Positions 1-23,007 of a stretch of 26,118 nucleotides of DNA are shown here, one piece after another. A program made the position numbers and the translations under genes. The notes under the pieces are model-generated. The model worked only from the letters and a program-made list of their open reading frames with translations. It had not been told where the DNA came from and searched no databases. How positions within the stretch are numbered: the first letter of the stretch is position 1; every line of letters begins with the position of its first letter. This DNA is from a virus. The stretch lies in IMG/VR virus record IMGVR_UViG_3300021197_001364, positions 1-26,118 of that record; one strand, written 5' to 3'.

Positions 1-2530
1 TACCTTGAGCATCAACCGTGATGTCTGCATTTGTGTAACTTCCAGCAGTTACGGATGTGTTTGCAAGATGCGATGCACCAATGCCATCGGCTTTAACTCT
101 TAGCGAATCACTATTTATTTCTATTGTGCTGTCATCAACATTTACACTTAAAGTATCGCCCGTTAATGTTAAACCGTCTCCAGCAGTAAGGTTTGTGTCA
201 TCCCCAATGTCAATTTGACCCAGCGTTATTGCTTGAGTTGAAATTGAAAGATAATCATGACTTGATGTAACCAATGTTACATTCGTGGAGTTGTCAGTAC
301 CGGCAGCGTCTACACCTAGTGTAGTTCTCATCGCTGAAACATTCGCATCATCCAATAAACCCCTAGCTGCTGCTGTCAAGTCCGTAACAGCATACGTATC
401 AGAGCCTGTGGTGTAAATCATCTTGTCAGCAGCGGTAGTTAATCCAGCTATAGATGTCAAGCCTGCGTCTACAGCTTGTTTGCCAGCTAATGCAGTAGTA
501 ATAGTTGAGGCATAACTAGCATCGTCATTAATCGCTGCTGCAAGTTCATTCAGTGTATCTAAAGCTCCGGGCGCTCCACCAATAAGATTGGTTATCTCTG
601 TGTCTACATAAGATTTAATAGATTGCTGTGTAGCTAAATGACTAGCGCTATTGGAAGTCATGTCATCTTCATCTTTGACGGGAACGGTAAAGTCTATATT
701 ACCATCCGTATCGTCGTAAGTGACAGTTATAAATGTCTCATCACCATCTAGCATACCTCCCACAAAGTCCTCAACCTCCTCTTGGGTAAGTTGAGTATCT
801 GTGTTTGTTACTGTCTCTGTTGCTGTTACCAATCCCGTAACATGTCCATTACTATCAAGAGTGATATCTTGTATGTACGTCCTACCGCTATTGTCAGAGG
901 ATGATGCAGCGCTAATATTTGGATGAGCGGTCAAAAAACCAGCGGAACTATTGTCGTAATTGGCAAGGTTGTTGTCTACAACAAAATCCATGTTGCCGTT
1001 GCTATCGTCATAGGTGACAGTTATAAGAGTTTTTGTACCACCCGTTGCAACTAAGGGACCAGCTATATCTTGCACTTCCTCTGTGGAAAGTTGTGTGTTA
1101 GTATCTGTTACAGTCTCGGTGGCTGTGGTTAATGCAGTGACATGACCATTGCTATCTAAAGTAATGTCTTGGATGTAAGTTCTACCAGAATTATCACTGC
1201 TTGAAGCAGCACTAATCGTCGGGTGCGCAGTTAAGTATCCAGCAGAACTGTGATCTCCCCACCCGTATGCCGTATCCCACTGACCAACCTTAGTGTCTGT
1301 AATCGTGTTAGTACCCATATCAATGCTATTTCCGTTAGCATCTAATGTGCCACCCAGCTGAGGTGTTGCGTCTTCAACCACATTGGAGATACCACCACCA
1401 CCACCACCACCAGTTAAACCAGAAACAGCAACAATATCAGCGGCATTTGTATCTACTCTTGACTCAAAGTATCCTGAATTCGCAGTGATACTAGAAGAGT
1501 TAGTTGAGATGCTAGAATCTGCCGAGTCTACGCGAGACTCAAAATAGCCAGAAAGAGAAGCGTCATTGTAGAGCAAACCAGACACTGTTGCTATGTCGGC
1601 TTTATTTTGATCTATTAATTGACCGCTAATGAAAGGCAATCCAGCGGTTGTTTGAATAGTTAAGTCAGAAAATCTTACTGAAGAAAATCTACCACTTGGA
1701 GATATAACATCACCAACTGTTTGAAAATGACCATCCTTATCTATACTTGCTTTTTCCGTAGATCCAACATTCCAAACTTGTAAATCTGCGATTTGACCAA
1801 CACCGGCGTTAACAGAAAGAATATCTTGAGATACAGAATTATTGGATATAGTTGTGGTATTGTCAGAGTTAATTACCAGAGAGTCAACAGAAATATTACC
1901 AGTACTTGTCGTAAAATTTAATATTTCTTCTAGTCTGTGAGTAAATTTTAATCCTTCTGAAGCACTGTCATCAATAGAGAGATATGCTAAACCATTACCT
2001 TTTAGTTCTACAAAGCCATCTTTTGCAGATACGTAGCCATAGGAGGGCGCTATTGTCTCAGTTGAAGAAGTTTTTAAACCTAATTTCCAAGTTGGGTCTG
2101 TACCCTCTTCTATAAAGAAAGAAGCAACCCTATTTGTGAAATCTGTAGATAAAGCCTGCCAGTAATCGCCGTCGTCAGATCTTTTAAATGCAAATGGTGT
2201 TGGAAAAACAACTAAGTCATTTTCGTCTTTAAATATAAGTTTTTCAGAAGGAACAACACAAAATACTATTGATGCACCAACTAAGGATATTTTAGAGCCG
2301 GAATCGGAACTTGTTATTACAGTGTCTCTAGTTAGGGTGTTTGAAGAGTAAGTACCTACACCTATTTCATATTTACTTTCATTTTGTATACAGTAGTATG
2401 TAGTGTTACCTTCTCCAACACCGCTAGAAAACGACTGAAACCCACCAAACGTACCGCCACTAAGGGTAATAGTACCAGTACCCTCAGTCGTGGTAGTTTC
2501 TTTTACTCTGTCAGCTATTATAAGTGGCAT
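1..2530 (-). CDS. Long tail fibre / receptor-binding structural protein (3' end outside window)
   Basis: Reading the minus strand from an ATG at 2530 gives 843 uninterrupted codons that leave the window at base 1, so the C-terminus is missing. The start lies 2 bases after the glycosyltransferase stop and has an AGGGA ribosome site. The N-terminal ~280 residues include a short attachment-like domain (MPLIIADRVKETTTTEGTG) and a 'VGSTEKASIDKDG' stretch. Then come a run of six glycines, the VEDATPQLGGTLDANG segment and two ~90-aa repeats with YIQDITLDSNGHVT cores. The last visible part (SYTNADITVDAQG) is also typical of repetitive phage fibres. It is Ser/Thr/Asp/Gly-rich with few Cys, as expected of a trimeric beta-rich fibre. 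Role (inferred): distal host recognition. A chaperone or adhesin tip may lie beyond the left edge. Confidence 0.85.
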   Translation of the reverse strand, partial: MPLIIADRVKETTTTEGTGTITLSGGTFGGFQSFSSGVGEGNTTYYCIQNESKYEIGVGTYSSNTLTRDTVITSSDSGSKISLVGASIVFCVVPSEKLIFKDENDLVVFPTPFAFKRSDDGDYWQALSTDFTNRVASFFIEEGTDPTWKLGLKTSSTETIAPSYGYVSAKDGFVELKGNGLAYLSIDDSASEGLKFTHRLEEILNFTTSTGNISVDSLVINSDNTTTISNNSVSQDILSVNAGVGQIADLQVWNVGSTEKASIDKDGHFQTVGDVISPSGRFSSVRFSDLTIQTTAGLPFISGQLIDQNKADIATVSGLLYNDASLSGYFESRVDSADSSISTNSSSITANSGYFESRVDTNAADIVAVSGLTGGGGGGGISNVVEDATPQLGGTLDANGNSIDMGTNTITDTKVGQWDTAYGWGDHSSAGYLTAHPTISAASSSDNSGRTYIQDITLDSNGHVTALTTATETVTDTNTQLSTEEVQDIAGPLVATGGTKTLITVTYDDSNGNMDFVVDNNLANYDNSSAGFLTAHPNISAASSSDNSGRTYIQDITLDSNGHVTGLVTATETVTNTDTQLTQEEVEDFVGGMLDGDETFITVTYDDTDGNIDFTVPVKDEDDMTSNSASHLATQQSIKSYVDTEITNLIGGAPGALDTLNELAAAINDDASYASTITTALAGKQAVDAGLTSIAGLTTAADKMIYTTGSDTYAVTDLTAAARGLLDDANVSAMRTTLGVDAAGTDNSTNVTLVTSSHDYLSISTQAITLGQIDIGDDTNLTAGDGLTLTGDTLSVNVDDSTIEINSDSLRVKADGIGASHLANTSVTAGSYTNADITVDAQG
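683..1249 (-). repeat. Two ~90-aa tandem repeats inside the tail fibre, 300-bp register
   Basis: Translated copies at 977-1249 and 683-949 both run SSAG(Y/F)LTAHP, then ISAASSSDNSGRTYIQDI, TLDSNGHVT, TATETVT, TQL, ITVTYDD and end at DF(V/T)V. Matching positions lie exactly 300 bases apart (for example the SSAG segments at 1249 and 949). Protein identity is high while third-codon positions have diverged, which points to an old duplication kept by selection. Confidence 0.85.
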
Positions 2531-2532
2531 TT

Positions 2533-3588
2533 CTATTCCCTGTTATATAGATATTTTGCTTCTCTTATAAAAGAATTATACACTATTTCATCAAAATCAT
2601 TTTGATTTACAAAATAATCGTGTACAGGACTCAAGTCAAGACCTAATTCCACATACTCAAGCACATAATTTCTTACTTTATAGTAATGTTCTAGAGGATA
2701 TCCGGGAGTTCCCACTCTGTGGAATTTGTGCATCCAAGCTAAAAACGGTAAACAGTAGGCTTTATGCCCTGCTTTTCTGAACTTCTCGTGTATATAGCAC
2801 TCTTCACCACCAAAACCCCTAGCGTGTTGATTATAACCCAACCAAGCCTCTTTTCTCACAAAAAAACAACCCGTTCCTTGACCAAAAATTTCAAATGGTT
2901 CTTCGTCAAATGTTTTTACTGCTAATGAATGTCCATCATTTGACAAGGATCTGTAATAATTATCTTCTTCAAGATTAGAGAAATTATATCCACATACGGG
3001 ACACTCTTTAATTATTTTACTATCTTTAGTAGATCTAACTATAAGTTCCTCGTCCGACAACTCCAAATCATAATAAAAGTCGTCGCATGAACACTTCCAA
3101 GATGTAGCCCAACTTCCCCACATTCCACCACCCCAAGTATTTCTAAAGTGGGTAGACACACTTTTGCAATTATCGTAAACTAATGGGCCATTATAAAGAT
3201 TATTAGTATCTGGGTTTTCATCCATAAATTCAAAAAGCTTTTCAAATACTGTGGTCGTGGGACACAATAGAACATGAGAATCTAACATTAGTATAAATTC
3301 ACCATTAGCGGCGGCAATCGCTGAATCCTTTGCTACAGCCGTTCCTTTATTTTCCCTTTGTATAGTATAACTAAGAGATTTTTCAGGTGCTAAATTTTGA
3401 ATTGCAAAGTTTTTTAACTCTCTAGCATGATTAGAATCTGGATTATTTTCACAGATCACAAACTCAATTTGTTGTAATAAATCTTGTCTCCCGTTAAATG
3501 TAAGCTCTTTCCTTATATCCTGAATAGTAAAATAAGCACCGTCCAAATCGTCGTAGTGGGCTATTGCCACTGAAAGTCTTTTTTCCAA
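2533..3588 (-). CDS. GT-A family glycosyltransferase with zinc-ribbon-like insert
   Basis: Predicted 351-aa nucleotide-sugar glycosyltransferase of the GT-A/GT2-GT27 type. Residues 5-55 form an opening Rossmann-like strand (LSVAIAHYDD ... EFVICENN). ENKGTAVAKDSAI (79-91) and GEFILMLDSHVLL (96-108) follow. DSH at 103-105 sits where metal-binding DxD or DxH is expected. GFGGEE (258-263) and MHKFHR (286-291) resemble the GGEN and His-rich C-terminal motifs of polypeptide GalNAc-transferases. A Cys insert (C166, C168, C196, C199) interrupts the domain. No signal peptide or membrane segment is seen. The start is TTG, chosen because TAAAGGAG lies 6-7 bases upstream and no ATG occurs before the catalytic motif. 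It is sandwiched between adhesin genes, so a virion adhesin or host surface glycan is the likely acceptor. The acceptor and sugar are unknown. Confidence 0.85.
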   Translation of the reverse strand: MEKRLSVAIAHYDDLDGAYFTIQDIRKELTFNGRQDLLQQIEFVICENNPDSNHARELKNFAIQNLAPEKSLSYTIQRENKGTAVAKDSAIAAANGEFILMLDSHVLLCPTTTVFEKLFEFMDENPDTNNLYNGPLVYDNCKSVSTHFRNTWGGGMWGSWATSWKCSCDDFYYDLELSDEELIVRSTKDSKIIKECPVCGYNFSNLEEDNYYRSLSNDGHSLAVKTFDEEPFEIFGQGTGCFFVRKEAWLGYNQHARGFGGEECYIHEKFRKAGHKAYCLPFLAWMHKFHRVGTPGYPLEHYYKVRNYVLEYVELGLDLSPVHDYFVNQNDFDEIVYNSFIREAKYLYNRE

Positions 3589-3599
3589 TCTACTCTCCT

Positions 3600-4613
3600 T
3601 TAAAAATCTATTTGTCTTGTAACTGTACTACCAACGGAAGGGAAATAAATACCTGTTACTGCTGTCTCACAACAGTAAATCTTTATTTCAAAACCATCGC
3701 CTGTTTGCAAACCCGCTGTGTATTCTGGGAAATATGTGCTGAATATTTCACCTATCCCTTCTGAAAGAGTCGAAGACAATGTAGATACATTATTCATAAC
3801 CGCTGTTTTGTCTGGACAGTCTTCTTCTTCTCCGGGTAGAAGAGGTGAGGGTTTAAAGCAATCACTACCATCTCCTCCTTCACTTCCAACATATCCCCAA
3901 GCATCTGGACCATCATAATCCCACTCATAGGTTGCGGACATAGCAAATTTTGATTCACATTCTGAATCGCAGGTTGGGGCGGGCGTTGTAGTGGTTGTCG
4001 TAGTAGTAGTAGTGGTAGTAGTGGTAGTTTGCTCTGGAGTACAACAAGATGGAGTATACCTTCTTTGGCCTATTTTTAAAGGTCCGATAAAACTATTAGG
4101 ATCTATCTTACATTCACCTTTCCTGTTAGCATTTGGAATTAATTTCCAAGCTGTCTCAAAACCTGTCTGTATATACTGCCATTCACAAGCGCTTAGATTA
4201 TCATCACATTGAAAAAACCCATCAATCTCTGAGCAAGAGTTTGGACCAATGGTTGTTGTTGTAGTCCTCCTTTTGGCACACGGTTGACTTTGACTATTTT
4301 CACCTATTCTAAAATCAGTTTTTGTTTTAAAGAATATACCCCCTAACTGCACTGATCTTCTGTCACACTCAGACTTAGTTAGGCCATCCACGCTTATCTG
4401 AAAATTTTGATTAATTTCACCATTAGCATCTATAGGGCCATAGCAACATAAACCAATTTCATGTTTAACACAATCTGACCTTGGGCTACAAACACCATCC
4501 CTCTCATCACACTCACCTCTAGAAAGATTTGTTAAAAAACTACCGTCTGGCAAGCAACAAAACTCACAAGAAAATGCTATATTTAATTGGGCTGTACCTG
4601 ATGATATTGTCAT
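3600..4613 (-). CDS. Cys-rich virion-associated protein with poly-threonine linker
   Basis: 337 aa, no enzyme motif recognised. It contains 22 cysteines, including CC pairs at 19-20, 56-57, 190-191 and 314-315. Residues 19-48 (CCLPDGSF ... GECDERDG ... C) and 56-112 (CCYGP ... GLTKSECDRR ... GGIF ... C) fit a repeat of the form CCxPDGxC-(T/L)xxEC-xxxGG-C. A five-Thr run lies at 117-121 and a 15-Thr run at 196-210, followed by PAPTC, a mucin-like linker. No signal peptide or transmembrane segment is seen. The gene starts 4 bases after the stop of the preceding long gene without a clear ribosome site, so translation is probably coupled. Position among fibre genes suggests a tail or adhesin component. 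The next gene is a glycosyltransferase, so the Thr run is a candidate O-glycosylation site (inference). Confidence 0.75.
   Translation of the reverse strand: MTISSGTAQLNIAFSCEFCCLPDGSFLTNLSRGECDERDGVCSPRSDCVKHEIGLCCYGPIDANGEINQNFQISVDGLTKSECDRRSVQLGGIFFKTKTDFRIGENSQSQPCAKRRTTTTTIGPNSCSEIDGFFQCDDNLSACEWQYIQTGFETAWKLIPNANRKGECKIDPNSFIGPLKIGQRRYTPSCCTPEQTTTTTTTTTTTTTTTPAPTCDSECESKFAMSATYEWDYDGPDAWGYVGSEGGDGSDCFKPSPLLPGEEEDCPDKTAVMNNVSTLSSTLSEGIGEIFSTYFPEYTAGLQTGDGFEIKIYCCETAVTGIYFPSVGSTVTRQIDF
3984..4028 (-). repeat. 15-threonine codon run
   Basis: Fifteen consecutive ACN codons (ACT, ACC, ACA and ACG mixed) encode residues 196-210 of the Cys-rich protein, followed by Pro-Ala-Pro-Thr. Mixed codon use shows it is not a pure DNA microsatellite, although a short (GTA)n-like core on the plus strand could allow in-frame length change. 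Confidence 0.95.
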
Positions 4614-8327: not shown

Positions 8328-11300
8328 TTAAGTACCGCTACAAGAAGCATATGTAGGTCTGTATTCTCCATTGACAAGTGATGCAACACAGAAAAGCCCG
8401 CCGCTTATCTGAAGGAAAAAGTCTCTATTTGTAACATACTCTTCGTATGCGTCAGCAAACAGATCGCTTTTAACTGTTAACCTACCGCTGGTTGGATTAC
8501 TATAGTCAGATGGGTTAGTGATTTTATCTACCAATATGCCTTCAATCATAACTGGTTTAGACCAATTATATCCTTCAGATTGGTAAGGTCTATCGTTTGC
8601 AAAAACAATAGCACCAGAGTTTGCTGGCGAAGGAGTTAGCGTGGTTTTTAATCCTTCAAGCGTATTATAACGTGGAACAATTAAATAACCGCTAGCGTTT
8701 ACAATGTCGTGATAAGAACCAGTATTAGCAACAACTTGACCGGACGGATCTGAAATATCAACCCTTCTGCTTAAAATAACTTTATCAAAACGTCCACTAC
8801 CAGCAGTAATGAAGGTATTATCAGTTGAAAGTTCGATACCACTTGCAGCACGATAGGTATTTGACTCTACTGAATCAATTAAGCCACCGACACCTGATAT
8901 TTCTACAAGATCTTCATAGATAACATCAAGGTTGTAATTAGTCCAGCCACTTACAGAATCTATCAATCCGCCCACACCAGAAACCGCCAACAACTCGTCT
9001 GCAAAATAACCACTAATATTATCTGTTACACCGTCTAAACCAGAAACAGCATTAAGATTATAATCTGCCCAACCGCTAACTTGATGAGTATAATTCTCGT
9101 TCCAACCACTAGCTGCGTGAATAAGTCCAGTGTCTACTCCAGAAATTTCATTTAGTAATACATTTTCAAAGTATCCACTAACTTTAGCTAGTGTTCCATC
9201 TTTTACCCCAGAGACAATATTAAGTTGTTGTCTAGTGAAGAATTTCGCTTGACCTAAAATTCCTCTGTCTGTGTCGCTTAATCTCTGATCTATAACCCCA
9301 CCTACACCAGATATTGCAAGTAATCCGTGAACAGCTAAACCAGAAAGTGCGCCAGCCTCAACTCTAAATGTATTGTTGACAGCATCTAAAGAAACTCCTA
9401 CTCCACTAACACCGTGAATTTTGACAGTTTCGGTGTTTCGTATTTCTGCTGTGGCTGCACCATCCGTAGCGTCCCAGTAGTCATACTGGTTTGATTCAAT
9501 TAGTTTTGCGTCTATTCTTCCACTAACACTCCAGATTAAACCTTGTGTGCCATATATTGTTGGATCAAGGCCACTTAAAGTGTTAAAGTTACTAAACGCC
9601 CATCCACTAACATTTTGAGCGCTTTCTGATGAAGACTCTGGGCAATTTACATTGACAAGGCAATTAACTCTGTCTTCAAGCGTATCAAGTGCAGACTGAA
9701 CACCTTCTGCGGATATTAATACTTGATCTACATCTTGCTCTACGAAAACAGAAATACCGGAAATACCGGAGAACAGAACATTATCTCCACCGCCAATCTG
9801 GGATGTATTTATTCCGTCATCAATATTCCAGACATATAGATCACCTTGACCTCCAGCTTCTTTAATCTTCTGATCAATGAGTCCATCAACACCGCTAATC
9901 TCATTTAAATCTTCAGTTATAGCAAGTGCTGAAAAATCTACCTCGTTAATACCGGCATTATTTCTAACCGTTGTAGATATTCCATCTTTACCAATATATT
10001 TAACTCTTTTGTTTGGACCTACAGATTGAGACGGCCCTGAATCAGCCTCTGCAAACCAAGCCACATATTGATCTTGACCATCTGGAAAACTTATATTACT
10101 AATTTGTTCAAGAACGTAACCACCAGCCCAGCCGCTAACATTAGTGGTATAACCTTGATTAAAACCACTAACTGCTTCTATATAATTTTCAGTCCACCCG
10201 CTAACTTGATCTATAATACCACCCTTACCAGATATCTCAACAAAATCTTCAGCAAATGGCTCAAAATAAGTTTCAGTAAGAGTACCAACCAGAGAACTAT
10301 CTAATGCGCTAGCGATATCGTCAATTTGGTTTACAGCAACTTTAATTGCATCAAGAACTTGACCAGAAACAAAGCCACCAACGCCAGAAATATCTTCTAT
10401 AACACCAGAGACAACATTAAACCGGTCGCTAATGTATCCAGACAAAGGAGCAGCAGATATATCAAGTCGATAGCCTGTATCAACGCTATCTTCACCCAGA
10501 CCTAACTCTACTCTTATTCCGCTAACACCACTTACTATTAATGTATCAGAATGTTCTACCTGACCGGACCCACCGTGAGTGTCTTCAATTTCCCAGAAAA
10601 CATAAGAGCCAGCTTGTATTACTTTATCATCTAAATAATCTTTAAGGTATCCACTAACATTGTCTAGTTGACCATTAACTCCAGATATTTGAGTTAAATT
10701 GTCGGAAGCCCAACCACTAGCCGCCCAAATCAAACCGCTAGGACCACCCCAACGGCTTGGTAAAGCACCAGACAATTGATTTAGACTATATTCAGTCCAG
10801 CCCGAACCATTAGCAAAATTTGTATAAGATAAATCGTATGCATCATCTGCTTCTGATGCCGCAATAGCGCTAGCCCAGCCGCTTATTAAAACAGCGCTAG
10901 CTGTTATTTGAGACGCAAGGTATCCTGAATTAATACCGATTTCCTGTTTGATATAACCACTAGCCCAACCAGAAACAGGTGCTGCGGAAATAGCCAAATT
11001 ATAAAAACTTGTGCCTCCAGCGCCTTCGTCTGTAATCATTCTGGTTTCAATGCCACTAATACCACTTATCATAAGTGTATCAGCATGATGGACCATGCCT
11101 GAAGCGCCGTGTTCCCCTTCTATTTCCCAAAAGGCAAACCCACCAGCTTCTACTATTTTACTGTCGGTGTAAGCTTTATTCCAACCGCTAGCTAAATATA
11201 TTAAGCCATTTGGATGGCTACCTAAGACTCCAGACAATCCATATACAGAACCATCTTGTCTGCGATCAAGACCAGAAACAGAAGTTATTTCATCTCTTGA

Positions 11301-12527
11301 CCATCCACTAATTTGATATATTTTACCATTATCAATACCGCTAATTTGATTTAGTAAACCGTTGTAACCACTAATTTCATTAAGATTGTAATCTGCCCAA
11401 CCACTAACAGAATTAATTATACCGTTAACACCGGTAATCTCAAGTAACTCTGGATAAATTCTATTGTTGAAGTTATATAGTGTCCATCCACTTACATTAT
11501 CAAGTTGACCACTGAGAGAAAGTAACTGACCATGCTTGCCGCTTATTGCAACAATGTCGCTTTCTATATTTGATAACTGCCCGCTAACCCAACCAGATAT
11601 TGGGTATGCAGAAATTTCCATAACTCTTTTATTTGCAATTTGGTCATGGAAATAGATTGTATCTATACCACTAACACCACTAAGCATCACAACATCATCT
11701 TTATCTATGACGCCAGAAGTTCCAAATTTATCAGCTAAAGCAAAAGACCAAGCTAATGGGACATCAATTGTGCCAGCAACTGTTACGTTTCTAAATGCAG
11801 CATCCCATTCATAACCAGACGCACCGATACTAAATGTTTGACCGCTAGCTGGCAATAAATCACCACTTACGGCTAATCCAACATCACCATCTACAAATAT
11901 ATCTGTACCAACACCCAACTGTCTAGAAGATAAGTCACCATACAGTAAAGGAGGTACTCCGCTTTCGTTGAGAGTCTGGTCACAACCACCAGAAGCTTGA
12001 GGGTAAGCACCTAGATAAAATTTAAGATTAGAATTATCATCTACATAGTAAGCAGCACCATGACCAATAGCTATATTAAAATCACCTCTAGCGTTTTCAA
12101 CTAAAGAATAACTACCTACTGATACATTTCCAGACCCTACCGTGTTTGAGCCTAGCGCATTGTAACCAACAGCAACATTATCAGAACCAAAAGAATTGCA
12201 AGCTAGAGTTAATGAACCCAGTGCAGTATTTCTAGAGCCAGTATAGTTAATACTTAATGCTTTATAACCAAAAGCAGAGTTGTCAATAGAAGACCTATTA
12301 GCCAAAGAAATTTGAGAAAGCGCATTATCACCAGCAATTGTAGTTCTTGTTTCATCAGAACTAAAATTTAGTGATGTTAAGAGGGTATCATCCAATATAA
12401 TACCCAAAGAGTCAGCAAGATCAGTAAATACTGACCTTAAATCTCCGGGAGATATCAACCTACTGGTATTGTCTGGTAGTATATTTTCAAGATACTCCAG
12501 AAATTCGGACTTAGTTCTGATAGTCAT
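8328..12527 (-). CDS. Giant repetitive tail fibre (SGW/SGV repeats)
   Basis: 1399 aa. The N-terminal ~60 residues (MTIRTKSEFLEYLENILPD ... ISPGDLRSVFTDLADS) look like a virion-attachment domain. Residues ~80-160 carry five N-x-A-x-G-x-x-A-L copies, like YadA head or phage-fibre beta-rolls. From ~245 to ~1270 the chain alternates short ISGVxGxIxxVSGWxxYxL units with five ~60-aa modules that begin with an aromatic segment (FAFWEIE, YVFWEIE, LYVWNID, YDYWDA, AWSFALA) and end in ISAxPxSG. The C-terminal ~140 residues (SGAIVFANDRPY ... PTYASCSGT) form a distinct tip domain with two Cys. The start is 3 bases beyond the previous gene's stop with only a weak ribosome site, so coupling is likely. Best guess: long or side tail fibre. 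Confidence 0.85.
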   Translation of the reverse strand: MTIRTKSEFLEYLENILPDNTSRLISPGDLRSVFTDLADSLGIILDDTLLTSLNFSSDETRTTIAGDNALSQISLANRSSIDNSAFGYKALSINYTGSRNTALGSLTLACNSFGSDNVAVGYNALGSNTVGSGNVSVGSYSLVENARGDFNIAIGHGAAYYVDDNSNLKFYLGAYPQASGGCDQTLNESGVPPLLYGDLSSRQLGVGTDIFVDGDVGLAVSGDLLPASGQTFSIGASGYEWDAAFRNVTVAGTIDVPLAWSFALADKFGTSGVIDKDDVVMLSGVSGIDTIYFHDQIANKRVMEISAYPISGWVSGQLSNIESDIVAISGKHGQLLSLSGQLDNVSGWTLYNFNNRIYPELLEITGVNGIINSVSGWADYNLNEISGYNGLLNQISGIDNGKIYQISGWSRDEITSVSGLDRRQDGSVYGLSGVLGSHPNGLIYLASGWNKAYTDSKIVEAGGFAFWEIEGEHGASGMVHHADTLMISGISGIETRMITDEGAGGTSFYNLAISAAPVSGWASGYIKQEIGINSGYLASQITASAVLISGWASAIAASEADDAYDLSYTNFANGSGWTEYSLNQLSGALPSRWGGPSGLIWAASGWASDNLTQISGVNGQLDNVSGYLKDYLDDKVIQAGSYVFWEIEDTHGGSGQVEHSDTLIVSGVSGIRVELGLGEDSVDTGYRLDISAAPLSGYISDRFNVVSGVIEDISGVGGFVSGQVLDAIKVAVNQIDDIASALDSSLVGTLTETYFEPFAEDFVEISGKGGIIDQVSGWTENYIEAVSGFNQGYTTNVSGWAGGYVLEQISNISFPDGQDQYVAWFAEADSGPSQSVGPNKRVKYIGKDGISTTVRNNAGINEVDFSALAITEDLNEISGVDGLIDQKIKEAGGQGDLYVWNIDDGINTSQIGGGDNVLFSGISGISVFVEQDVDQVLISAEGVQSALDTLEDRVNCLVNVNCPESSSESAQNVSGWAFSNFNTLSGLDPTIYGTQGLIWSVSGRIDAKLIESNQYDYWDATDGAATAEIRNTETVKIHGVSGVGVSLDAVNNTFRVEAGALSGLAVHGLLAISGVGGVIDQRLSDTDRGILGQAKFFTRQQLNIVSGVKDGTLAKVSGYFENVLLNEISGVDTGLIHAASGWNENYTHQVSGWADYNLNAVSGLDGVTDNISGYFADELLAVSGVGGLIDSVSGWTNYNLDVIYEDLVEISGVGGLIDSVESNTYRAASGIELSTDNTFITAGSGRFDKVILSRRVDISDPSGQVVANTGSYHDIVNASGYLIVPRYNTLEGLKTTLTPSPANSGAIVFANDRPYQSEGYNWSKPVMIEGILVDKITNPSDYSNPTSGRLTVKSDLFADAYEEYVTNRDFFLQISGGLFCVASLVNGEYRPTYASCSGT
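9340..11757 (-). repeat. Five diverged ~60-aa modules within the giant fibre
   Basis: Approximate module starts on the minus strand are 11753, 11140, 10608, 9843 and 9485. Shared pattern: aromatic-rich strand with W, D/E-G, SG, D-x-(V/L)-x-(I/L)-SG-(I/V)-SG-I, then a variable 15-20 aa stretch and (I/V)-(S/E)-A-x-x-(L/V)-SG. DNA identity is low, so this is a protein-level repeat. Short SGW/SGV units separate the modules. Confidence 0.75.
12048..12290 (-). repeat. Five short N-x-A-x-G-x-x-A-L repeats (beta-roll)
   Basis: The translation shows NSAFGYKALS, NTALGSLTLA, NVAVGYNALG, NVSVGSYSLV and NIAIGHGAAY spaced by about 15-20 aa. This pattern is known from trimeric autotransporter heads and phage fibres, where it forms a left-handed beta-roll. 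Confidence 0.8.
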
Positions 12528-18325: not shown

Positions 18326-20317
18326 TTAATAAATATCATTCATATTTTGGGTGAACCAGTTAGGACCAGTAAATAATTTACCTTTATCTTTTTGTTTGGA
18401 GTCCGAAGGTAAGGATGAAGCAAATCCACCAAAAAATTGATATTCTTCTGGGGTTCTTGTTCTAGATATAATCCTAGCCGCCATGTTTGCCATTATAAGA
18501 GCAGAATACCTATCCTTTCTCATTTTAGATTTCTTACCAGCACCAACAATAATCTCTGGTGTGTCCCATCTGTCTCGACCACTTGATGTCTGAGTCATTT
18601 GAATCATAGATAATTCATCTTTTAATTCCTCAATATCCATAACACACTCTTCTAATGTGTCATACATTCTACCTTTAATATTATCATCAATACTAGCTAG
18701 ACCTAGACCCGCAGAGTCAAACATTGGAAATAGAATGGCTTTGTCCTCAAAATCTTTTCTGAGTCCGTGATTAGCCTCTGCTAGCCAATCGTACTTTGCA
18801 AACTGGCACATTTCCAGAATATGTAATCCTCGTTCGTCGTCAGTGTCTTTTGGTTTGTCTTCGTCAATGACGGGCCATATAGCCATTTCGCCATCTTGGA
18901 TTTTATCGTCATCATGTAAAGATTCCATAACAGCAATACCGCCACCTTGAGCGTCCATTGCAATATGTACGCAAGGAAAAAGTTTCATTAAGTCTCTAAT
19001 TTTTCTTGCACAGTACGAATAGAAGTCTCTTTCTGTAGAAAAGCCTCTTTTTATTTTTTCTTTATGTTCTGATCTTGTTGTTGTCCAACAGTGTACAATT
19101 TTTCTGTGATCTTCTGCAAGTTCTAAAACAATAATGCTAAAATTATCAACTTCAGATGCGGGGTCAACACCAAATACATACTGCTTTTTTGGATCTCCAA
19201 TTAGCTTTGCTTCAAAGATGATGTCATTACCCTTGGAGTCTTTCATTGGCTCTTTGTCGTTAGATACACAAGACTCAATGAGAGATCTCTTGAAGAAACC
19301 CTCTGAGTCGCGCGTAAAGACCGCCCCAAACTCCATTTGATATATACCAGCATGAACGGTCGCTTTAGACCTAGCGACCTGTGAGGCATCCATAAAGCCT
19401 TCTGGTAGAAGTTCATAAGGTATTCTCATAATAGAGTATTCTGTCCAGTCAAAGTTTTTAGGAACTTCGTCGCCACCAAAAAGATCTCTGAGTTTATTTT
19501 CATTTCCGCCACTTTTAATTATCGTCTTCCATCTTTTCCAGTAGTCGGCAAAATGGTTGAAGTCGTAATAAGCAGTGCCGCTAAGGATAATTTGGTTGTC
19601 TTTCGTTTCGATTTGCGCCTCGTCGGAGCTATTTATTTCTACTCCTAGTTCTACTGCTTTTTTCTCTCTAGCTAACCTTTTAACGTTCTCAATAGGGTCT
19701 GAACTTACAGCAGCAAAACCTGCCACAACAGTCTCAAAGATATCGCGAGGAATAGAAGCAAATTCGTCAGAGATAATATCATTAGCTCTTTGACCTCTAA
19801 TTTTTTGTCCGTCGCCAAGAGGTAGGCAAGTAACGCGAGAATCGTTAATCCGCATAACGCAACGATCAACATCTCTACGTGGGCCAGAGTTTCCATCGCA
19901 TATATCCCTTAGAATTGGAGAATTGTTCCATATTGTCTCCATGTACTCAAAAAGAACTTTAGACTGTCTAAATGCAGCGCCGACAACAACAACTTTTCTC
20001 TGGGGTATTAGTACAGCCCTAAGCATGGCGTAAAGAGATAACATGAAGGATTTACCAAAACCACGACTAGCTATAAGCATCGGAAACTTACGGTTCCATA
20101 GTTCAGCTAATATAAGAGCTTGAGAGGGAAGTAAAGTGATGTTAAATATGTTTTTGACCAGAAAGGAAAAATACTCTGGTCTAGTCATAAGCCAAGTTAG
20201 TTTTAAATGAAATTCATCATCAGAACTTTTTAATAAACCCATAGGATTAAAGAGTTCACTTTCTGATACATCAATGTTTAGCCAAGCTTCATCTATTTGT
20301 TTTAATTTTTTATTCAT
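18326..20317 (-). CDS. terL: Terminase large subunit
   Basis: 663 aa DNA-packaging motor. ATPase domain: Walker A ASRGFGKS at 83-90, Walker B IISDEF at 181-186 with D184 and E185, and coupling motif LSGTAYYD at 245-252. Nuclease domain (RNase H-like): VFGVDPASE with D385 and HIAMDAQGGG with D455, with a further acidic residue expected near the C-terminus. Length and arrangement fit a T4-type or related headful terminase. The ATG overlaps the ClpP-like gene stop by 4 bases (ATGA) and has only a weak ribosome site, so translation is probably coupled. Unusually, TerL is the last gene of the early-side operon rather than the first gene of the head operon. Confidence 0.97.
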   Translation of the reverse strand: MNKKLKQIDEAWLNIDVSESELFNPMGLLKSSDDEFHLKLTWLMTRPEYFSFLVKNIFNITLLPSQALILAELWNRKFPMLIASRGFGKSFMLSLYAMLRAVLIPQRKVVVVGAAFRQSKVLFEYMETIWNNSPILRDICDGNSGPRRDVDRCVMRINDSRVTCLPLGDGQKIRGQRANDIISDEFASIPRDIFETVVAGFAAVSSDPIENVKRLAREKKAVELGVEINSSDEAQIETKDNQIILSGTAYYDFNHFADYWKRWKTIIKSGGNENKLRDLFGGDEVPKNFDWTEYSIMRIPYELLPEGFMDASQVARSKATVHAGIYQMEFGAVFTRDSEGFFKRSLIESCVSNDKEPMKDSKGNDIIFEAKLIGDPKKQYVFGVDPASEVDNFSIIVLELAEDHRKIVHCWTTTRSEHKEKIKRGFSTERDFYSYCARKIRDLMKLFPCVHIAMDAQGGGIAVMESLHDDDKIQDGEMAIWPVIDEDKPKDTDDERGLHILEMCQFAKYDWLAEANHGLRKDFEDKAILFPMFDSAGLGLASIDDNIKGRMYDTLEECVMDIEELKDELSMIQMTQTSSGRDRWDTPEIIVGAGKKSKMRKDRYSALIMANMAARIISRTRTPEEYQFFGGFASSLPSDSKQKDKGKLFTGPNWFTQNMNDIY

Positions 20318-20925
20318 TTATAAATTCCATCGACGAATCCGTAATACACAGCTTCATCTGCTGTCATGTACCAGTCGCCACCTCCTAGTTTTCTTTTTAT
20401 GTATGATTTAGTTTTAGATAGGTTGTTCTGACGTTCTTTAAAATATTCTCCTTTTTGACATCTTTCTGCATATATTTCTATCATTTGTTGCGCAATATAT
20501 TTTTCAAAGTCAGCTAGGTTTTGCGTGGTTAAATAATGTCCACTTATTTCGCTGCTACCCCAATGCACCATAAATGCAGAGTTGTCAGTAACTAAGCGTC
20601 TTGTTGCAGCTTGTATAATAACAGTACCCATAGAACATAACTGACCATAACCAATAAAAGTGGTCTTACATTTGCAATTTTTGATTGCATCGTATATACC
20701 CATACCAGAATACCAGCAACCGCCTACTGTCTGCATGTGTATTGTGATTGGATCTTTACTAAGATTCTTTAGTATGTTTATATTTTTAATAAAGTTTTGG
20801 AGCATCCTGTGGTCTACACCGGCAGACTCTCCTGAGTCATCGAACTCATTTATGTATATTTCTCTGTTTTTTACATCTATATTGTAAGAATGAATCTCAC
20901 CAACACTATCTCTTATGTTTGTCAT
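20314..20925 (-). CDS. ClpP-like serine protease
   Basis: 203 aa, S14 (ClpP) fold. Visible motifs: ITIHMQTVGGCWYSGMGIYDAI (60-81) as the oxyanion/strand region, GQLCSMGT with nucleophile S98, FMVHWGSS with H121, and MTADEAVYYGFVDGIY near the end, like the FLSAxEAxxYGLID of ClpP. The usual ERDT segment carrying the catalytic Asp is replaced by KRKLGGGD (177-184), so the third residue is unclear. Because a separate prohead protease exists downstream, this protein may act elsewhere: as a ClpP substitute or decoy with host ClpX, or as a second head protease. The ATG follows AGGG and overlaps the ERCC4 nuclease stop by 4 bases. Confidence 0.85.
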   Translation of the reverse strand: MTNIRDSVGEIHSYNIDVKNREIYINEFDDSGESAGVDHRMLQNFIKNINILKNLSKDPITIHMQTVGGCWYSGMGIYDAIKNCKCKTTFIGYGQLCSMGTVIIQAATRRLVTDNSAFMVHWGSSEISGHYLTTQNLADFEKYIAQQMIEIYAERCQKGEYFKERQNNLSKTKSYIKRKLGGGDWYMTADEAVYYGFVDGIYK

Positions 20926-21684: not shown

Positions 21685-21931
21685 TTGCCACCTCTACTTT
21701 CAACACTCTAATATCATTCATGATAGACTTTACAAACTCTATAGACTCTACGGAATGATCTTTTTTTAGTAGCTTTAAATTCAATTTATGATATGCTTTA
21801 TAACAAGCTCCGTCAGGATCTTCTGCTTCTACAAAAATAACCGGAGAGGGACTGTTGTAAGCACCTAGGTCAAATCTTTTTAACCTCGCGACAACTAAAG
21901 TCATATCCATAAGAACTTTATAAATCTTCAT
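21668..21931 (-). CDS. Small phage protein of unknown function
   Basis: 87 aa, no family recognised. Noted features: KRFDLGAYNSPSPVIFVEAEDPDGACYKAYHKL in the middle reads like a small alpha/beta domain with the PDGACYKAYH helix. A charged C-terminus ends KVEVASEKKL. The ATG overlaps the gmd stop (ATGA) and its end overlaps the HNH start, so it is embedded in the operon. No signal peptide and no coiled coil. Confidence 0.7.
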   Translation of the reverse strand: MKIYKVLMDMTLVVARLKRFDLGAYNSPSPVIFVEAEDPDGACYKAYHKLNLKLLKKDHSVESIEFVKSIMNDIRVLKVEVASEKKL

Positions 21932-23007
21932 TCTAGATCGTGTTTAACCATCATTTTAACAAGGTCTTCAAAACTATGTCTAGGTGTCCAGCCTAAGTTC
22001 TTGCTTGCTTTACTAGCGTCTCCACGTAAATAATCTACTTCCGCTGGTCTATAAAACTCTGGATCTTGTACTACATAGTCAGACCAATCCTCAATACCAA
22101 CCTCTTTAAATGCAACGTTTAAAAATTCTCTGATAGTATGTGTTTCACCTGTACAAATTACGTAATCATCAGGACAGTCTTGCTGCAACATCATCCACAT
22201 CGCTTCACAATAATCTCCTGCGTATCCCCAGTCTCGATATGCGTCTAGATTGCCTAGACGAAGCTTGGGAAAACCCTCTCCGTCCATAAGGGAGTTATAA
22301 AGCATATTCTCATCGTCTTGCTGGGGGATATCTATAATCGCCCCCGTCTCGTTTGTTGGATTGTTCCATTTGACAAACTCACCAATCCACTTGGTAATCT
22401 TTCTCGTTACAAAATTCTCACCTCTACGTGGTCCTTCGTGATTGAATAATATTCCGGCACTTGCATGTAGGCCATAACCTTCTCTGTACAATCTAGTCAT
22501 ATAGTGAGCAGCGCATTTAGCTATCGCATATGGGCTTTGCGGTAAAAACTTGGTTTCTTCGTTTTGGTATTTACTTTCAGCGGTCATCCCAACTTCAATA
22601 TCATAATTGCTTCCAAACATCTCACTAGAACTAGCTTGGTAAAATCTTGTGCCTATCATACGAAGGTCTACCATACTTTGTAATATATTTAAACAGCCTT
22701 TGCCAGTGATGTCCCAAGTCAACCCCGGTTGATTAAAAGATACCGCAACATGAGATTGTGCTGCTAAATTGTAGACTTCATCTACTTTTTCGTGACATTT
22801 TAATATATTTATAACGCTAGATTGATCCGTAATGTCTCCTTCAAGCAATTTGAATTTAGGATTACTCATTAGATGGGAAATACGTTCCGTGTTTGGGGTG
22901 CTAGTACGCCTTGATACCCCGTATACTTGGTAATCTTTTGCAATCAGTAGATCTGAAAGGTGAGAGCCATCCTGTCCTGTAACACCAAAAATTATAGCTG
23001 TCTTCAT
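21928..23007 (-). CDS. gmd: GDP-mannose 4,6-dehydratase
   Basis: 359 aa short-chain dehydrogenase that turns GDP-D-mannose into GDP-4-dehydro-6-deoxy-D-mannose, precursor of GDP-fucose, GDP-rhamnose or GDP-perosamine. Motifs: the Rossmann loop GVTGQDGS (8-15), VYNLAAQSHV (78-87), the active site SSSEMFG (126-132) with YAIAK Y160/K164, and FNHEGPRRGENFVTRKI (188-204), diagnostic of Gmd. LGNLDAYRDWGYAGDY (251-266) is the C-terminal hallmark. About 25 extra residues at ~218-245 interrupt the region before it. The ATG has AAGGA. No second-step enzyme (reductase or aminotransferase) is in the window, so it must use host or other phage enzymes. It probably supplies sugar for glycan modification of phage or host. 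Confidence 0.97.
   Translation of the reverse strand: MKTAIIFGVTGQDGSHLSDLLIAKDYQVYGVSRRTSTPNTERISHLMSNPKFKLLEGDITDQSSVINILKCHEKVDEVYNLAAQSHVAVSFNQPGLTWDITGKGCLNILQSMVDLRMIGTRFYQASSSEMFGSNYDIEVGMTAESKYQNEETKFLPQSPYAIAKCAAHYMTRLYREGYGLHASAGILFNHEGPRRGENFVTRKITKWIGEFVKWNNPTNETGAIIDIPQQDDENMLYNSLMDGEGFPKLRLGNLDAYRDWGYAGDYCEAMWMMLQQDCPDDYVICTGETHTIREFLNVAFKEVGIEDWSDYVVQDPEFYRPAEVDYLRGDASKASKNLGWTPRHSFEDLVKMMVKHDLE

Follow-up and report, generated by a model that had tools for sequence, protein, structure and literature searches.

We propose that a soluble, cytosolic, metal-dependent GT-A enzyme encoded by a tailed phage O-glycosylates the threonine-run linkers of a tail-region protein encoded upstream of it. 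We consider this reading likely, with catalysis, the sugar donor, the site, the virion location of the acceptor and the role of the modification all being inferred, and it is based on the predicted fold of the enzyme, its active-site pattern, the pairing of the two genes in phages and in bacteria, the conservation of the threonine runs at the protein level and the enrichment of proline at position +3. The stretch of DNA analysed, referred to here as the window, comprises positions 1-26,118 (26 kb) of the viral record IMGVR_UViG_3300021197_001364. The record is that of a tailed phage, as judged from a terminase, a virion/tail-spike-like protein recognised by PHROG and a tail fibre gene that adjoins the enzyme gene. 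The features discussed are given in Table 1, and labels such as L001 denote related or comparison loci. A ClpP-like protease, recognised by eye, is encoded at 20314-20925 on the minus strand and adjoins the large terminase subunit, and a GDP-mannose 4,6-dehydratase gene at 21928-23007 on the same strand is a possible source of nucleotide sugar.

Table 1. Features of the glycosyltransferase gene block; coordinates refer to the window.
Feature	Position	Strand	Details
GT27-like glycosyltransferase	2533..3588	-	351 aa, TTG start; DxH 103-105, FGGEE 259-263, H287/F289/R291, Y297
Cys-pair insertion	2977..3099	-	residues about 164-204, CxC and CPVC; zinc-ribbon-like; from viral and bacterial alignments
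Ribosome-binding site of glycosyltransferase gene	3593..3601	-	AAAGGAGAG, by sequence reading
Proposed acceptor	3600..4613	-	337 aa, Cys-rich modular, two Thr runs between Cys-rich modules
T15 run then PAP	3984..4028	-	residues 196-210, mixed Thr codons
T5 run then IGP	4251..4265	-	residues 117-121; homologous linker is T8 in L002 and L003
Cys-rich member of this gene block, 1231 aa	4618..8313	-	N-terminal CCCTPPP; highly variable among relatives
1399-aa virion/tail-spike-like protein	8328..12527	-	phrog_6002, phrog_4636; upstream block member, conserved
Tail fibre protein, cut by window end	1..2530	-	phrog_454, E 9.5e-24; begins 2 bases past glycosyltransferase gene

The preliminary description of this DNA had pointed to DSH (103-105), GFGGEE (258-263) and MHKFHR (286-291) as motifs close to those of polypeptide GalNAc-transferases and to a threonine-run gene immediately upstream. 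When the translation was re-read all three motifs were found in the 351-aa open reading frame, and the threonine-run gene, with its T15 followed by PAP, does lie directly upstream on the same strand, 11 bases from the glycosyltransferase gene, whose TTG start is just downstream of the ribosome-binding site. An alignment of 32 viral sequences, with relatives 33-62% identical to the window enzyme, gave an AlphaFold2 model with a pLDDT of 91.7 and a pTM of 0.91. In a Foldseek search of this model against the PDB, ranks 1-45 were all GT27 polypeptide GalNAc-transferases, and in VIA-align against the PDB entries 1-29 were all GT27, with Z scores of 19.1-22.8. The best match was GalNAc-T2 (Z 22.8, rmsd 3.0 Å over 262 residues) and TgGalNAc-T3 scored Z 22.5, whereas the scores outside GT27 were 18.9 for RmlT, 18.3 for B4GALNT1, 18.1 for K4CP, 18.0 for GlfT2 and 17.6 for TarS. 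A Bradyrhizobium relative that was modelled independently (pLDDT 95.1) gave the same ranking, with Z 23.6 vs 18.9. A match of the fold to GT2 lipid or polysaccharide enzymes would have gone against the earlier claim, and in the two models no GT2 polymer or lipid enzyme ranked as high as the GT27 matches. Function cannot be concluded from a shared fold.

In GalNAc-T2 the metal ligands are D224, H226 and H359, and the contact residues are W331, E334, R208, G308/G309, R362 and Y367, of which E334 contacts O4 and O6 of GalNAc (PMC4388629). By motif spacing, and not by residue-level superposition, D224/H226 are equivalent to D103/H105 of the window enzyme and H359 to H287. E334 is likewise matched by E262 and W331 by F259, which are 25 and 28 residues, respectively, before the distal His in both enzymes, and R208 is matched by K87, 16 residues before the Asp in both; position 87 is Arg in 27 of the 32 viral sequences and Lys in the others. 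G238-x-G240, R291 and Y297 are at equal or near-equal spacing to the pocket and contact residues of which they are the counterparts. With the exception of position 87, none of these GalNAc-T2-equivalent residues varies among the 32 viral sequences, nor do the F-G-G-E-E core and F289. In 32 bacterial relatives DxH and the distal His are invariant and the wider active-site pattern is nearly so; across all 64 aligned sequences the motif is invariably DxH and not DxD.

Sequence-only searches place the enzyme less specifically. The sole Pfam family above its cut-off was PF00535 (GT2; residues 37-142, E 1.3e-7, 32.1 bits vs 23.3), and the N-terminal half groups with GT2 enzymes, TarS among them at E 0.003. 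Matches to GT27 were weak, namely PF02709 at E 0.086 in one member and GalNAc-T7 at E 0.28 with a bacterial profile, and no GT27 chain was retrieved by sequence with the viral profile. PF11397 (GT60) was not matched at E<=1 by any of 32 members. No Pfam match to a ricin-type lectin domain was found and the protein stops after the catalytic domain; no hydrophobic segment that could be a membrane anchor precedes the first strand, which begins at residue 5; and the Trp of the GT27 motif (WGGEN) is replaced by an invariant Phe in FGGEE. Tests for the lectin domain, the membrane anchor and the motif Trp all came out negative, and for this reason we do not file the enzyme as GT27; in its inferred working it is GT27-like and not GT27 proper. 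The Cys-pair insertion is found in the branch of the window and is absent from L037, L042 and L044 and from the bacterial relatives; that it might bind metal is an inference from its zinc-ribbon-like cysteines. Viral long forms of about 575-690 aa (L029-L041, L044, L143-L178) have a C-terminal SAM-methyltransferase (Methyltransf_24/RMNT_CmcI-like), and a Cys-rich tail (DUF6171) is frequent on them.

In the 337-aa protein the T15 run uses ACT, ACC, ACA and ACG in irregular order and therefore is not a product of triplet slippage, and its occurrence by chance is negligible at 12.5% Thr. Among the distinct runs of at least 8 Thr, 71 in all, the codons are almost always mixed, which rules out slippage as their origin apart from exceptions with short codon periodicity (L031, L040, L151, L177 and L178). 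The homologue in L001 has a T15 at the same place and only 3 of its 15 codons agree with those of the window. Of 310 viral runs 76% were followed by proline at +3, as were 90% of 30 bacterial ones, compared to a background of 9-10%; the figure was 48% in Thr-run proteins without such an enzyme in the locus, and Pro at -1 was also common. A pocket for Pro at +3 is known in GalNAc-T1 and many isoenzymes (PMC10901373). Examples of such neighbours are those of L136, which reads TTTTTTTAGPTTTTTTTAGP, and L016, which reads TTTTTSGPTTTTTSGP. The Thr-run protein of L016 itself bears a virion/tail-spike N-terminus, and it is only in relatives like this one that the Thr-run protein is recognisable as a virion protein, the 337-aa protein having no Pfam or PHROG match. 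With neither mass spectrometry nor a virion location for the 337-aa protein, its glycosylation is inferred. In L012 the enzyme neighbour (2471-3373) has a T19 and a run of about 25 Ser, and so Ser may also be an acceptor.

For the survey of gene pairing, Thr-rich was defined as at least 10 Thr in 20 codons, the enzymes were collapsed at 70% identity and a span of -3/+1.5 kb was taken. The collapse left 36 phage loci, of which 31 had Thr-rich coding sequence within this span, and of 49 bacterial loci 29 had a Thr-rich window there. In phages the frequency per kb was 0.63-0.66 for the nearest 2 kb on the upstream side, 0.29 for the third kb on that side and 0.00-0.08 in all other bins; in bacteria it reached 0.35 for the kb immediately upstream, against 0.12-0.13 for the neighbouring kb on each side and 0.00-0.04 at greater distances. 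The background in random viral contigs was 9 of 984 kb bins. Chance pairing with long tail proteins was ruled out by length-matched controls, since among open reading frames of 800 aa or more 15 of 28 adjacent ones were Thr-rich, compared to 1 of 35 others in the same loci and 2 of 37 in random viral records. That any phage GT2 pairs with Thr runs was also ruled out, as none of 17 unrelated phage GT2 genes, drawn from random viral records, had a Thr-rich window within 1.5 kb. When a cyanophage GT2 was scanned with as a control, no relatives were retrieved. The GT27-first fold and this survey together support the earlier view of a GalNAc-transferase-like enzyme beside a Thr-rich acceptor, the modification itself not having been measured.

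The expectation that homologous phages would share the pair was borne out only in part, because relatives without a Thr-rich neighbour exist, and the viral ones are nearly all in the clade of the window. In a tree of 96 viral enzymes 76 had a Thr-rich neighbour, 16 had none and 4 were at contig ends, and 14 of the 16 fall in that clade. It has 16 enzymes, of which only those of the window and L001 have a neighbour that reaches the Thr-rich threshold, the neighbour in L002 and L003 having a T8; this suggests that the Thr-rich neighbour is labile there while the enzyme remains intact. The enzymes of the clade keep DxH and also the other motifs, with qualifications for L133-L135 and for L130, which was partly unread. 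In the opposite direction, Thr runs alone do not predict the enzyme: viral contigs with runs of T12 or longer and without it are common (L179-L297), and only 3 of 49 viral records with such runs encode it. GT60 was considered as the enzyme of these other phages and was rejected, there being no clear enrichment (2 of 49 vs 1 of 50 random records). GT60-like (PF11397) genes do lie within about 2 kb of Thr-run open reading frames in two phage records, each of which contains both members of its pair: L184 (838-1392 and 2881-3834) and L247 (3925-5559 and 6244-7125). A second GT2 gene is frequent elsewhere in the records of phages that have the enzyme, and in L030, L153, L158, L160, L165, L171, L173 and L177 it is about 2-3 kb from the GT27-like gene.

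Under a rival account the enzyme does act on proteins of the tail-fibre block, but the sites that it modifies lie outside the Thr runs, which are plain flexible linkers of fast-evolving modular adhesins that coincidentally share the cassette. The frequency of Thr runs in viral proteins without the enzyme, the preserved active sites of enzymes without Thr-rich neighbours and the placing of the runs as linkers between Cys-rich modules would all fit such an account. However, bacteria show the same pairing next to unrelated small proteins with TAT-like signals and with no evident adhesin cassette, Pro at +3 is enriched to 76-90%, and the Thr-rich signal is centred sharply on the enzyme gene and not on the tail region at large, and we therefore hold this account to be unlikely. 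Still less probable, in our judgement, is that the enzyme is an ordinary GT2 acting on a host surface polysaccharide or a lipid carrier, as in superinfection exclusion or receptor change. PF00535 being the only Pfam family above cut-off speaks for it, as do the GDP-mannose 4,6-dehydratase gene of the record and the second GT2 genes, several of them nearby, in such phages. Against this, the enzyme has no membrane segment and has DxH in place of the DxD usual in GT2, in both models the top GT27 match outscores GT2 polymer enzymes by about 4-5 Z units, and, unlike the 17 control phage GT2 genes, its gene sits between tail genes and beside Thr-run proteins.

A variant that is compatible with our preferred explanation, glycosylation of the Thr-run linkers, keeps the same acceptor and replaces GalNAc by another sugar, for example alpha-GlcNAc as in GT60 or the sugar of another UDP-sugar, with the glycan O-methylated where the glycosyltransferase is fused to a methyltransferase. 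We give this variant almost an even chance. The fold does not reveal which donor is used, GT60-like genes occur close to Thr-run genes in the two phage records described above and many viral relatives have the C-terminal SAM-methyltransferase, but the equivalent of E334 and the G-x-G pocket are conserved and PF11397 is matched at E<=1 by none of the 32 members.

Successive scans found relatives in 45 and then 401 viral loci, of which the best 80 were inspected, and in 97 bacterial loci, of which 80 were kept; the bacterial sources are Proteobacteria, Planctomycetes, Acidobacteria, Desulfobulbaceae, Bacteroidota, Actinobacteria and others. Among INPHARED isolates there was no close relative and the only match was a weak one to the C-terminal tail. 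In 37 of 74 bacterial loci a loose TAT-like pattern was present in an open reading frame within 4 kb, a minority of these being clearly spurious frames. In the convincing cases, such as L055, L078, L100, L109, L112, L115, L120 and L121, a core like LPxKWTKPVVxSVVxPAHA is followed by a Thr/Pro tail. Small TAT-like proteins with this shared core and mucin-like tails, in L054 too, are often in tandem beside the GT27-like enzymes, and the whole looks like an uncharacterised system for the modification of exported proteins. The enzymes of L100 and L121, the only two of this kind scanned, have their glycosyltransferase part preceded by an HprK-related kinase A domain. The Thr-run protein of L059 combines a TAT-like signal with a PqqD-related domain at the N-terminus (TIGR04353, below the curated cut-off), and those of L080 and L113 resemble it by eye. 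TAT exports proteins that are already folded, and glycosylation in the cytosol ahead of export would therefore fit, which is an inference.

In the mechanism that we envisage for the phage, the 351-aa enzyme would be produced together with the tail-region proteins and would bind Mn2+ through D103, H105 and H287, along with a UDP-sugar. The sugar transferred would most likely be a HexNAc; GalNAc is not proven, and the host, and hence the supply of UDP-GalNAc, is unknown. The threonines of the neighbouring linker would be modified in the cytosol ahead of virion assembly, and this linker of the tail-fibre/adhesin region is predicted to become mucin-like, with dense O-glycosylation, and may as a result be stiff and extended, protease-resistant or shielding. 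In many other phages the SAM-methyltransferase fusion and the second GT2 gene suggest that the glycan may be elaborated further.

GT27 polypeptide GalNAc-transferases start mucin sugar chains in animals. The phage enzyme is like them (GalNAc-T2 and T. gondii GalNAc-T3) in that no other structures match it so well across the entire catalytic domain, in having DxH with the distal His, GGE, Arg/Lys and the Gly pocket at equal or near-equal spacing, and in that the adjoining protein has threonines with Pro at +3, the context of their acceptors. It is unlike them in being only about 15% identical, in lacking the lectin domain and the anchor of these type II Golgi proteins, in having Phe for Trp331 and in being a cytosolic enzyme of phages and bacteria whose activity is inferred. 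With the GT2 enzymes TarS, TarP and RmlT of wall teichoic acid and the chondroitin polymerase K4CP it shares the GT-A fold and a sequence-detectable N-terminal half, but these have lower structural scores, DxD and not DxH, and polysaccharide acceptors. GT60 polypeptide alpha-GlcNAc-transferases likewise transfer to protein hydroxyl groups and have relatives in phages, twice near Thr-run genes, but their Pfam model is not matched by the phage enzyme family. A phage precedent is found in mycobacteriophages, which are reported to encode the enzymes that glycosylate their capsid and tail-tube subunits, including Che8 gp110 and Corndog gp36-38, the latter with the methyltransferase gp35 (Freeman et al. 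2023 via PMC12363180, PMC11600133, PMC12619734, PMC4351075). Such systems resemble the one proposed here in their phage-encoded glycosyltransferases aimed at the phage's own virion proteins and, in Corndog, in the methyltransferase gene; this set is a precedent for elaboration of the glycan by the fused methyltransferase or second GT2. They differ in that their targets are the C-termini of capsid and tail-tube subunits, whereas those proposed here are Thr-run linkers in the tail-fibre region. Glycosylation of phage virions is already known. A literature search, which did not cover subscription papers, found no mucin-type version of it that relies on a GT27-like enzyme and no description of a bacterial or phage GT27-like enzyme with a Thr-run partner.

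To our knowledge the initiation of mucin-type O-glycosylation is generally regarded as eukaryotic. A wider conjecture is that it exists across prokaryotes and viruses, with cytosolic GT27-like enzymes acting on T-x-x-P runs of phage tail adhesins and of bacterial TAT-like exported proteins, and that the eukaryotic GalNAc-transferases are a membrane-anchored, lectin-bearing offshoot; we put this forward tentatively, as possible and not as probable. The pair of enzyme and Thr-run protein is small and amenable to direct testing. If the proposal is true, glycoengineering would gain soluble enzymes that act in one step and the eukaryotic GalNAc-transferases would have a candidate source, and it would mean that there is a prokaryotic route to mucin-like glycoproteins and that phages have a new means to armour or stiffen their adhesins.
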